This document shows positions 14,870-17,680 of a DNA stretch of 64,000 nt, piece by piece (within the stretch, counting starts at the first letter, position 1; the number at the start of each line of letters is the position of its first letter). The stretch is from an uncultured Sphingomonadales bacterium (GTDB lineage: Bacteria; Pseudomonadota; Alphaproteobacteria; Sphingomonadales; Rhodothalassiaceae). The stretch is from NCBI GenBank assembly GCA_947499155.1, contig CANMND010000002.1:1-64000 (forward strand). Direction: 5' to 3'. A program made the position numbers and the translations under genes. Under the pieces are notes generated by a model. It was not told where the DNA came from. It did no database searches and saw nothing but the letters and a program-made list of their open reading frames with translations.

Positions 14870-14892
14870 TATTGGCACGTTAAATGCATATT
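14870..14892. promoter_or_regulatory. Possible weak NsrR-like operator before the 36-residue peptide
   Basis: The right half AAATGCATATT (14882-14892) matches the NsrR half-site AAATRCATCTT at all but one position. The left half TATTGGCACGT is poor. It lies 50-72 bases before the peptide start. I give it weight only because two better sites lie in the same locus. Confidence 0.35.
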
Positions 14893-14941
14893 CTTTCTTG
14901 CAACGTTTAGGAGGGGCTAAACATAGCAAGGAGGGGATGCC

Positions 14942-15052
14942 ATGTTCAAACGTACCGAAATTAATATTCCAGCCAGACTTTTCATTTTGGCATGGGCGAC
15001 AAGCTACGGCGCACTCATTATTTTTCTTGGATATTGCGTGCTGGTAGACTGA
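14942..15052 (+). CDS. Predicted 36-residue single-pass membrane peptide
   Basis: This small gene starts at ATG 14942 and stops at TGA 15050-15052. A very strong ribosome site, AAGGAGG, at 14929-14935 leaves 6 bases before the start. The peptide begins MFKRTEINIPAR, which is positively charged, and then has one hydrophobic helix (LFILAWATSYGALIIFLGY) ending CVLVD. It looks like an inner membrane micropeptide with a cytoplasmic N-terminus. It lies upstream of nnrS on the same strand, with an NsrR-like site in each flanking gap, so a link to the nitric oxide response is plausible but unproven. A second GGAGGGG sits within the hairpin GTTTAG-N6-CTAAAC at 14905-14922, just upstream. Confidence 0.6.
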   Translation: MFKRTEINIPARLFILAWATSYGALIIFLGYCVLVD

Positions 15053-15186
15053 CGATAATAGGTGAGCACAGCCGTAGTTTCTTATTATCATTGATGCAGC
15101 TCTCTCCGGTCCAATGCATTGGGTCGGGGCAGCAGGCCATGTTCATCATGTGATGTGGCACAATTTTGCTGTACAGAAAATACTAT

Positions 15187-15209
15187 AAGATGTATTAAAT
15201 ATGCATCTA
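15187..15209. promoter_or_regulatory. NsrR-like operator upstream of nnrS
   Basis: A dyad with arms AGATGTAT and ATGCATCT agrees with the published NsrR consensus (AAGATGYATTT-N-AAATRCATCTT) at about 19 of its 22 fixed positions. It lies 62-84 bases before the nnrS start. NsrR is a nitric-oxide-sensing Rrf2 repressor known to control nnrS in several Proteobacteria. No nsrR gene is in this window. Confidence 0.7.
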
Positions 15210-15270
15210 TTAAACAGGGCAGAAACATTCTGTCTTGTTAGTTATCTCTCATAGCTTTGAGGTATTTTTC

Positions 15271-16476
15271 ATGGGACAAGCCACGACGCAGACAAAGGCC
15301 AGGAGTCGGGCATCAAGGGCGCCCTTCAGTGCGTTTTTTAGTTTGGGCTATCGCCCATTCTTTCTCGGTGCATCCCTATATGCGGTGATTGCTCTTGCCT
15401 TGTGGCTTTGGGTTCTGATCGGTGGAGGAGACATACCCACTGCGTTCGAAGCCCTAGCGTGGCATCGCCATGAAATGCTGTTTGGGGTGATAGGGGCCGT
15501 GGTCGCAGGCTTTTTGCTGACGGCGGTTCCAAACTGGACAGGTGCACCTCCTCTGAGCGGATTTCCATTAGTTTTGTTATTTGGATTATGGGTTCTTGCC
15601 CGTATCGCTCTGGCTTTGTCCGGCACTATTGGCATCGCGTGGGCGATTATCCTTGAGGCAGGCTTTTTCTTCGCCTTGGCCGGTTGGGGCATGAAGGTGA
15701 TTTTGGCATCTGGCAATCGTAATGTACCAATCCCGTTGGTTATTGGGTTTTTGGGTCTGATGGCGATTGGAGATTATTTGGCACTATTTGGTGCGGGTAA
15801 TCTTGGTGATGTCGCCTATCGCGCAGGACTTGGTATTTTATTACTCTTGATATCTCTGATCGGCGGACGAATCGTCCCGATTTTTACAAAAAACTGGTTA
15901 GGTGCCAATCAGCGTTCCGGGCCATTTCCAACACCTGCCAATGCCTATGATAAAGCCGTGATAGTGGTTTCACTGCTCACATTTGCCAGTTGGGCAGTGG
16001 CTCCATTCTCCATGATGAGCGCTGTTCTTGCCTTGTTGGCAGGGAGTATGCACGGAATTCGCCTGTCACGCTGGCGCGGCTGGCGCACGTCTGACGAACC
16101 ACTGATTATGATCATGCATCTCGCCTATTTGTGGCTGCCGGTAGGGTTGATCCTTTTGGGGGTGAGCATATTGACCGACGTTGTGCCTCATATGGCCGCG
16201 GTTCATGCGCTGACGGCTGGTGCCATGGGTGCAATGACTCTGGCAGTCATGATGCGGGCAACATTGGGTCACAGCGGCTATCCGCTGGTCTCCACTCCCT
16301 TGACCAATGTCATTTTTATCATGATCAATCTGGGTGCGCTTGGGCGGATTGTTTCAACTTTTTGGCTGGAATGGTCTTATACAGTCCTAGGCATATCAGG
16401 CAGCCTTTGGGCCGGCGCCTATCTGCTTTTTGCTATAGGTTTTGGCCCTTTGCTTGTATTGCCACGCACCAGATAA
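15271..16476 (+). CDS. nnrS: NnrS family heme-copper membrane protein
   Basis: A 401-residue polytopic membrane protein (about 12 hydrophobic segments) of the NnrS family, which protects cells against nitrosative stress, probably by limiting iron-NO complexes. The family signature is clear at the N-terminus: GYRPFFLGASLYAVIALALWLWV, then AWHRHEMLFGVIGAVVAGFLLTAVPNWTGAPPLSG, including the conserved HxHEM-type histidines. Further on GRIVPIFTKNWL and HALTAGAMGAMTLAVMMRATLGHSG are typical. ATG 15271 is chosen because GAGG lies 8 bases upstream. The last 58 bases overlap the end of a second NnrS-type gene on the other strand. An NsrR-like operator precedes it. Confidence 0.92.
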   Translation: MGQATTQTKARSRASRAPFSAFFSLGYRPFFLGASLYAVIALALWLWVLIGGGDIPTAFEALAWHRHEMLFGVIGAVVAGFLLTAVPNWTGAPPLSGFPLVLLFGLWVLARIALALSGTIGIAWAIILEAGFFFALAGWGMKVILASGNRNVPIPLVIGFLGLMAIGDYLALFGAGNLGDVAYRAGLGILLLLISLIGGRIVPIFTKNWLGANQRSGPFPTPANAYDKAVIVVSLLTFASWAVAPFSMMSAVLALLAGSMHGIRLSRWRGWRTSDEPLIMIMHLAYLWLPVGLILLGVSILTDVVPHMAAVHALTAGAMGAMTLAVMMRATLGHSGYPLVSTPLTNVIFIMINLGALGRIVSTFWLEWSYTVLGISGSLWAGAYLLFAIGFGPLLVLPRTR

Positions 16477-17627
16477 ACAAGCCACAAAACCAAAAGGCCA
16501 AAGCCGGTGCACCACAGACCGGCTGTGGCCCAAAGAGCCTCGATACGCAGTGTCGGGACGTAGGAAAGCATACGTGCGCAAGCGCTTAGCATTATGAGAA
16601 TAAGCGCGAGCAGAAGGACTTTTCCAAGGAGAACAGGCTGTCTGTCTCTTTGAAGGCAGGTTCTGGCCATCACGGTCATACCCAGCATACCTAGACCGCC
16701 GACGAAAGCAGGATGCAGGGCCTCTGTAATGCTAAGCTGTCCTGATAATTGTGCCCATCCCTTAACAAAGAGTCCAAAGGCGAGCCAGATATAACCGACA
16801 TGCAAGGCTGAGACGCTCCATTGGCGGGCAACATGCCAGATTTGCCAGCGCCACAAGCGCAGCGCGATAACAACTGCGAACGCCAGGGCCAGAAATCCTC
16901 CGATGAATGAAAATAAATCCAGGATGTCGAGGGCAACCATGGGGGCGAGTATGAATAGTCCCGCACGCTCCAGATCCTGATGTGCAGGACGATGAAGCTT
17001 TCGGCCTATGGCCTGATGTGCGCCTGAAGTAGCAGCCGCTATCAGACGCCCACCCATGGTGAACAGCATGGCAAGGACCATCCCGGCGGCAAGAATAATA
17101 CCACTTAAAGATCCCAGGGGCAGGGGGATAACATGACCCAGCAGGTACAGTCCTTCCGCCAGGGCCAATGCTCCAAGAATGGTGGGGAAAATGAGGTTGC
17201 GCCAGCTTTTGGCAGCCCTGACAAAAGGCCCGCCAGCATAAAGTGCCAGCAGCAGGGGGTATAGCAGCAGCATCGGGGCCTGAAATGAGAACGGAATAGA
17301 CGGAACAAAGATCGCCGCCCTGCCAACCAGCCATGCACCAAAGACAAGCCTGATGCGCGCTTTGTGGCTGCTGCTCAACAGATAGCCACCCATCAAGGCG
17401 GAAGCAAATCCCAAAAGCATTTCATGGCCATGCCAGTAAAGAGGCAATTCAGACAAATCGATGATGCCTGCATAAGACGCGGCCTTTAGGGCGGTGGACA
17501 ACAAACCCAGCAGGCAGGCCGCCGGGAAAAAAAGACGATCGGGACGGGGCTTGGCTAGACGGATAGTGTCTGTTCTCGACTTTTCCGTACTGTTGTTTTG
17601 ATGAGTATGTGCTTTCTGTTTTCCCAT
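16419..17627 (-). CDS. Second, divergent NnrS family membrane protein
   Basis: A 402-residue polytopic membrane protein. It has the NnrS landmarks in weaker form: PRPDRLFFPAACLLGLLSTAL, then LYWHGHEMLLGFASALMGGYLLSSS, then MGGRLIAAATSG and AFVGGLGMLGMTVMARTCLQRDR. A histidine-rich start (HTHQNN) precedes the first membrane segment. A GAGGA ribosome site lies 7 bases before ATG 17627. Its 3' end overlaps that of the canonical nnrS by 58 bases on the opposite strand. With an NsrR-like dyad 31-53 bases upstream, it is likely expressed with nnrS under nitric oxide. Whether the two proteins act together or on different substrates is not visible. Confidence 0.82.
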   Translation of the reverse strand: MGKQKAHTHQNNSTEKSRTDTIRLAKPRPDRLFFPAACLLGLLSTALKAASYAGIIDLSELPLYWHGHEMLLGFASALMGGYLLSSSHKARIRLVFGAWLVGRAAIFVPSIPFSFQAPMLLLYPLLLALYAGGPFVRAAKSWRNLIFPTILGALALAEGLYLLGHVIPLPLGSLSGIILAAGMVLAMLFTMGGRLIAAATSGAHQAIGRKLHRPAHQDLERAGLFILAPMVALDILDLFSFIGGFLALAFAVVIALRLWRWQIWHVARQWSVSALHVGYIWLAFGLFVKGWAQLSGQLSITEALHPAFVGGLGMLGMTVMARTCLQRDRQPVLLGKVLLLALILIMLSACARMLSYVPTLRIEALWATAGLWCTGFGLLVLWLVYLVRGNTSKGPKPIAKSR

Positions 17628-17657
17628 TATGAATCCTCAGCGGGGAAAAAGCGATCA

Positions 17658-17680
17658 AACATGGATTATTAATGCATGAA
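17658..17680. promoter_or_regulatory. NsrR-like operator upstream of the second NnrS-type gene
   Basis: The arms CATGGATTA and TAATGCATG form a dyad with one mismatch per arm around a single central base. Against the NsrR consensus it matches about 16 of 20 fixed positions. It is 31-53 bases before ATG 17627, a fitting place for a repressor. Confidence 0.5.

Follow-up and report, generated by a model that had tools for sequence, protein, structure and literature searches.

Two genes for NnrS-family membrane proteins, nnrS1 and nnrS2, lie in convergent orientation, with overlapping 3' ends, in the window, by which is meant the whole 64-kb stretch of DNA that was analysed (Table 1). The sequence-only reading of this DNA had taken both products for NnrS-type proteins, and this agrees with their scores against the Pfam NnrS family (PF05940), both of which exceed the 28-bit cut-off. 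Hydropathy segments number 13 and 11 in the two proteins, in keeping with the approximately 12 transmembrane segments of the family. NnrS1 has a WHRHEM motif and conserved His283 and His312, while NnrS2 has conserved His66, His68, His276 and His305; an invariant WHxH motif and two further histidines, all in conserved columns, are common to the two proteins. Since the identity between them is just about 30%, nnrS2 is, judged by its sequence, an old divergent paralogue of nnrS1 rather than a recent duplicate. Relatives of nnrS1 were found in 30 of the 60 genomes searched, and, when its sequence was searched against the PDB, no related solved structure turned up.

The third gene of the locus encodes a small membrane protein. 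It is probably a real gene, because its ribosome-binding site is perfect and because a homologue of the same length that possesses its own ribosome-binding site occurs in another genome of the same family (G005, L078:1501-1608). The homologue has 39% identity to the micropeptide, includes a SYGALI core and adjoins recX (contig RFKS01000152.1, MAG J134). A resemblance of the micropeptide to CydX/DUF2474 was our presumption, and the possibility that it is an oxidase subunit of that kind was rejected when searches against Pfam and NCBIfam gave no match. The idea of a conserved NO-linked micropeptide family was also set aside, as just one convincing homologue was found among 298 genomes of the order, 385 genomes of the class and the GTDB contigs.

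Table 1. Genes, candidate operators and linked loci, with the evidence for each.
Feature	Coordinates	Strand	Evidence and details
Weak NsrR-like dyad in the micropeptide upstream region, TATTGGCACGTTAAATGCATATT	14870..14892		15/20, shuffle P 0.033; 50 bp to ATG (14942)
36-aa single-pass membrane micropeptide, MFKRTEINIPARLFILAWATSYGALIIFLGYCVLVD	14942..15052	+	Sequence; AGGAGG ribosome-binding site
Predicted NsrR-like operator of nnrS1, AAGATGTATTAAATATGCATCTA	15187..15209		17/20, shuffle P 0.0015; 62 bp to ATG (15271)
12-bp stem-loop in the nnrS1 leader, after the operator and before the start codon	15213..15239	+	Terminator-like scan
nnrS1, NnrS-family membrane protein, 401 aa	15271..16476	+	PF05940, 335 bits
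nnrS2, divergent second member of the NnrS family, 402 aa	16419..17627	-	PF05940, 175 bits
Predicted NsrR-like operator of nnrS2, AACATGGATTATTAATGCATGAA	17658..17680		15/20, shuffle P 0.016; 31 bp to ATG (17627, minus strand)
NsrR-type Rrf2 gene	G000:C1:112576-113031		Divergent from a group III truncated haemoglobin gene
Second cbb3 oxidase (ccoNOQP-DUF2189)	G000:C1:577620-579275; L019:2867-2889		NsrR-like site, 18/20

NsrR operators are AT-rich dyads with an 11-1-11 arrangement. Sites were scored against a 23-base consensus, AANATGYATTTNAAATRCATNTT, with 20 informative positions, which we take from the literature on E. coli NsrR; the host here is an alphaproteobacterium. Direct reading of the sequence located all three of the dyads that had been proposed at the locus. 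Scores of at least 15/20 occur at four places in the 64-kb window, where 200 dinucleotide shuffles predict 0.89, and a score of 17/20 occurs at one place, against 0.005 expected. That place is the dyad at 15187-15209, which is the best match of the window and had rightly been described as strong. Three of the window's four best consensus matches fall in a 2.8-kb stretch, all upstream of genes and each 31-62 bp from a start codon. The shuffle P values in Table 1 give, for each upstream region, the chance of an equally good best match in shuffled sequence, and by score and P value the site at 15187 is therefore strong, that at 17658 good and that at 14870, taken alone, marginal. The right half of the last dyad, AAATGCATATT, is perfect and its left half is poor. 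Sites were sought genome-wide by pattern searches for ATGYAT-N5-ATRCAT cores. The core at 15190 is one of just two perfect matches in the genome, the second of which (C2:79484) sits within a sigma-factor gene and was discarded, and the site at 17658-17680 has one mismatch to this pattern.

Control of the locus by NO through these dyads calls for an NsrR homologue elsewhere in the genome, and an NsrR-type gene was found. The genome has three Rrf2 genes, one of which encodes a SUF-type regulator (141 bits against a cut-off of 111) and another an NsrR-type protein with a match of 128 bits to the Rrf2 domain (PF02082), while one carries no assignment. The best PDB match of the NsrR-type protein is the solved Streptomyces NsrR (5n07; E 3e-14), with which its three cluster cysteines and N-terminal Asp, located in CFTTGISKCVITKSC and HTDYAL, are in register. 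In a small tree the protein groups, with modest support, with E. coli NsrR and with alphaproteobacterial Rrf2 proteins encoded beside hmp, NorB or NnrS, and away from the genome's remaining two Rrf2 proteins. Because it misses the NCBIfam cut-off for NsrR, it is referred to as NsrR-type and not as a curated NsrR. The product of the adjoining haemoglobin gene matches the Campylobacter group III truncated haemoglobin (trHb) 2ig3 (E 6e-21). Autoregulation of nsrR was considered and rejected, as the best site in the gap between nsrR and the trHb gene scores 13/20 and is not significant.

A search of the genome for further copies of the motif, which the sequence-only reading had suggested, found one upstream of the gene for the Fe-S repair protein RIC/YtfE (AAGATGCATATAATATACTTGTT, 17/20) and one in the intergenic region that a second cbb3 oxidase operon (ccoN2) shares with a DUF488 gene (AAGATGCATTTAATCTACATATT, 18/20). 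The latter is attributed chiefly to the cbb3 operon because the DUF488 genes of relatives lack sites, and DUF488 was dropped as a conserved NsrR target. The same reading had noted that the window holds no NO reductase. This extends to the whole genome within the scope of a COX1-family search, which returned one aa3 and two cbb3 oxidases and no NorB; a genome-wide search for the globin domain of flavohaemoglobin (Hmp) likewise found none.

Sites of this kind are also present at NO-related genes of other genomes. In a genome of the same genus (G001), an 18/20 site precedes nnrS and a 16/20 site lies between nsrR and hmp. The nnrS gene of G029 is preceded by an 18/20 site, the nsrR region of G009 has sites of 18/20 and 19/20, and on plasmids of Rhizorhabdus and Jiella sites of 16-17/20 precede trHb genes that adjoin NsrR or hmp/NnrS. 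Most nnrS genes of the order have no recognizable site. None of the nnrS2-type paralogues in G005, G006 and G019 (L198, L199 and L200) has a site of at least 16/20, and conserved control of nnrS2 was rejected on that account.

The locus probably belongs to an NsrR regulon that serves NO defence and would include nnrS1 and nnrS2 here and RIC and the second cbb3 operon elsewhere in the genome. Predicted control by NsrR is well supported for nnrS1 and probable for nnrS2. We infer that, without NO, an Rrf2-type NsrR carrying an Fe-S cluster would occupy the 15187 and 17658 sites, repressing both nnrS genes. NO would attack the cluster, the repressor would come off the DNA, and both NnrS membrane proteins would be produced and would lower NO damage. 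The same repressor, encoded beside the group III trHb, would act elsewhere on RIC/YtfE and the second cbb3 operon. Joint control of all three sites by NO, as originally proposed, holds up in part. The NsrR-type gene, the sites at RIC and cbb3 and the sites at nnrS and nsrR/hmp of relatives favour it for nnrS1 and nnrS2. It is not established for the micropeptide, whose own site is marginal. Membership of the micropeptide in the NsrR regulon is possible and its link to NO unproven, because the sole homologue found, that in G005, has neither an nnrS gene on its contig nor an NsrR-like site upstream.

The proposed regulon could be smaller than this, with nnrS1 as the sole NsrR target and the sites of nnrS2 and the micropeptide as chance half-matches. 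Those two sites score 15/20 (P 0.016 and 0.033 per region), and none was found ahead of the nnrS2-type paralogues in those three genomes (G005, G006 and G019) or ahead of the G005 micropeptide. The gathering of three of the window's four top-scoring matches at this one locus, together with the short distance of 31 bp between the nnrS2 site and the start codon, nevertheless makes such a restriction unlikely. Alternatively, the Rrf2 protein could be iron-responsive and RirA-like, in which case iron or Fe-S status, and not NO specifically, would be the signal at the dyads. Its NCBIfam score is higher for RirA (146.7 bits, cut-off 193) than for NsrR (123.3 bits, cut-off 182), but both equivalog cut-offs are missed, and a Shinella Rrf2 encoded directly before a trHb-containing cbb3 operon has the same balance of scores. 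Rrf2 proteins encoded beside hmp, NorB or NnrS in named alphaproteobacteria likewise stay below both cut-offs and reach just 118-142 bits on the NsrR model. Moreover, the motif is NsrR-like, the strong sites precede RIC, nnrS and cbb3, and the sites inspected had no iron-uptake gene next to them, all of which renders an iron-responsive regulator improbable. Chance AT-rich palindromes, with nnrS either constitutive or under a Crp/Fnr-type regulator (NnrR/DNR) or NorR, are an improbable explanation: alphaproteobacterial nnrS is classically controlled by NnrR (PMC1274295) and many nnrS genes of relatives have no recognizable site, but the density and position of the sites, their conservation within the genus, the resident NsrR-type gene and the lack of an FNR-type box (TTGAT-N4-ATCAA, up to two mismatches) in the three upstream regions (nnrS1, nnrS2 and micropeptide) argue against it.

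The NsrR regulon that we favour resembles that of gamma- and betaproteobacteria (hmp, ytfE/dnrN, nnrS and hcp) in its Rrf2 Fe-S repressor, its AT-rich 11-1-11 dyad and its nnrS and ytfE/RIC targets, and nnrS is a well-conserved target of NsrR according to Rodionov and coworkers (PMC1274295). It differs in that no hmp was found, a trHb gene lies beside nsrR, there are two nnrS genes and a cbb3 operon and DUF488 have a site between them. In their survey of 2005, Rodionov and coworkers reported nsrR in one alphaproteobacterium only (PMC1274295). Sphingopyxis granuli TFA likewise has nsrR, ytfE and nnrS genes, and NO raises its nsrR 5-fold, ytfE 213-fold and cupin-norB-nnrS2 4- to 18-fold (PMC6472365); it has NorB, which was not found in the present genome, and its own ordinary cbb3 genes fall with NO (PMC6472365, PMC7713065). 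The rhizobial NnrS1 and NnrS2 (cited in PMC8446750) are likewise a pair of NnrS proteins with a link to NO metabolism within a single alphaproteobacterium. The NO island on plasmid p2 of Rhizorhabdus dicambivorans (NZ_CP023451) also has an NsrR-type Rrf2, a group III trHb and a DUF2189-type cbb3 operon (ccoN 71% identical), but there all lie in one island together with qNor and hmp, whereas here the genes are scattered and qNor and hmp were not found. A coherent NsrR regulon would thus be present in an alphaproteobacterial lineage in which control by NO is usually credited to Crp/Fnr regulators. Since neither an NO reductase nor a flavohaemoglobin was found, much of the NO defence would fall to the NnrS proteins, perhaps together with the second cbb3 oxidase. 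The function of NnrS, and whether certain cbb3 oxidases act as NO enzymes in vivo, become directly testable.

The second cbb3 oxidase belongs to a distinctive group. Its CcoN scores 621 bits on TIGR00780 (cut-off 583) and retains the active-site Tyr and the CuB His pair in the sequence YIWVGSHH, with Ser in place of Pro. It is 74% identical to a gene of G009, 70% to one of G047, up to 75% to plasmid members of the group and approximately 53-61% to the ordinary CcoN proteins of the order. Wherever such an operon was read to its end, ccoP is followed by a DUF2189 gene, an arrangement that none of the controls has. The DUF2189-type CcoN sequences that were tested fall into a single clade (100/100, branch 1.11), and by this measure the NsrR-linked cbb3 belongs to a deep, separate clade, widespread in alphaproteobacteria, of ccoNOQP with a small protein, DUF2189 and sometimes DUF488. 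The CuB His pair occurs as GSHH in 11 of 12 distinct DUF2189-type sequences and as GAHH in the other, against GPHH in 26 of 26 ordinary CcoN sequences, and the active-site Tyr is kept.

These operons repeatedly lie near Rrf2 or NO genes. An Rrf2 or NO gene lies within 9 kb at 10 of 14 DUF2189-type loci, and a dedicated NO gene (trHb, hmp, NnrS, NorB or ric) at 7 of the 14, in a small and partly related sample of mostly top-of-list matches; one of the loci, L220, was drawn as a control and reclassified through its DUF2189 gene. No Rrf2 gene occurs at any of the five ordinary ccoN control loci, and NnrS occurs at one of them, at the very edge. The operon of G047 directly follows nsrR and trHb. 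Its contig, C153 (L187 1267-19999), is from another family of the order and carries a narK-like transporter gene, narGHJI, nnrS, a Crp/Fnr-type regulator gene, nsrR, trHb, DUF1971 and the cbb3-2 operon. We tentatively suggest, as a possibility short of an even chance, that the clade is a dedicated NO-stress enzyme, induced by NO through NsrR and with an altered neighbour of CuB, which might serve as an NO-tolerant oxidase or, in genomes without NorB, as an NO reductase. No open-access paper on the ccoNOQP-DUF2189 module was found, and the clade is a more novel lead than the NsrR-nnrS locus, which is itself a known kind of stress circuit, although one that apparently takes in a distinct cbb3 variant here.

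Two kinds of minor feature were also observed. The stem-loop in the nnrS1 leader could be a leader hairpin, an attenuator or another operator. Near-perfect NsrR-like cores lie upstream of an M48 peptidase gene (G000:C2:76424-76440) and between two subtilisin-like protease genes (G000:C1:76626-76642).
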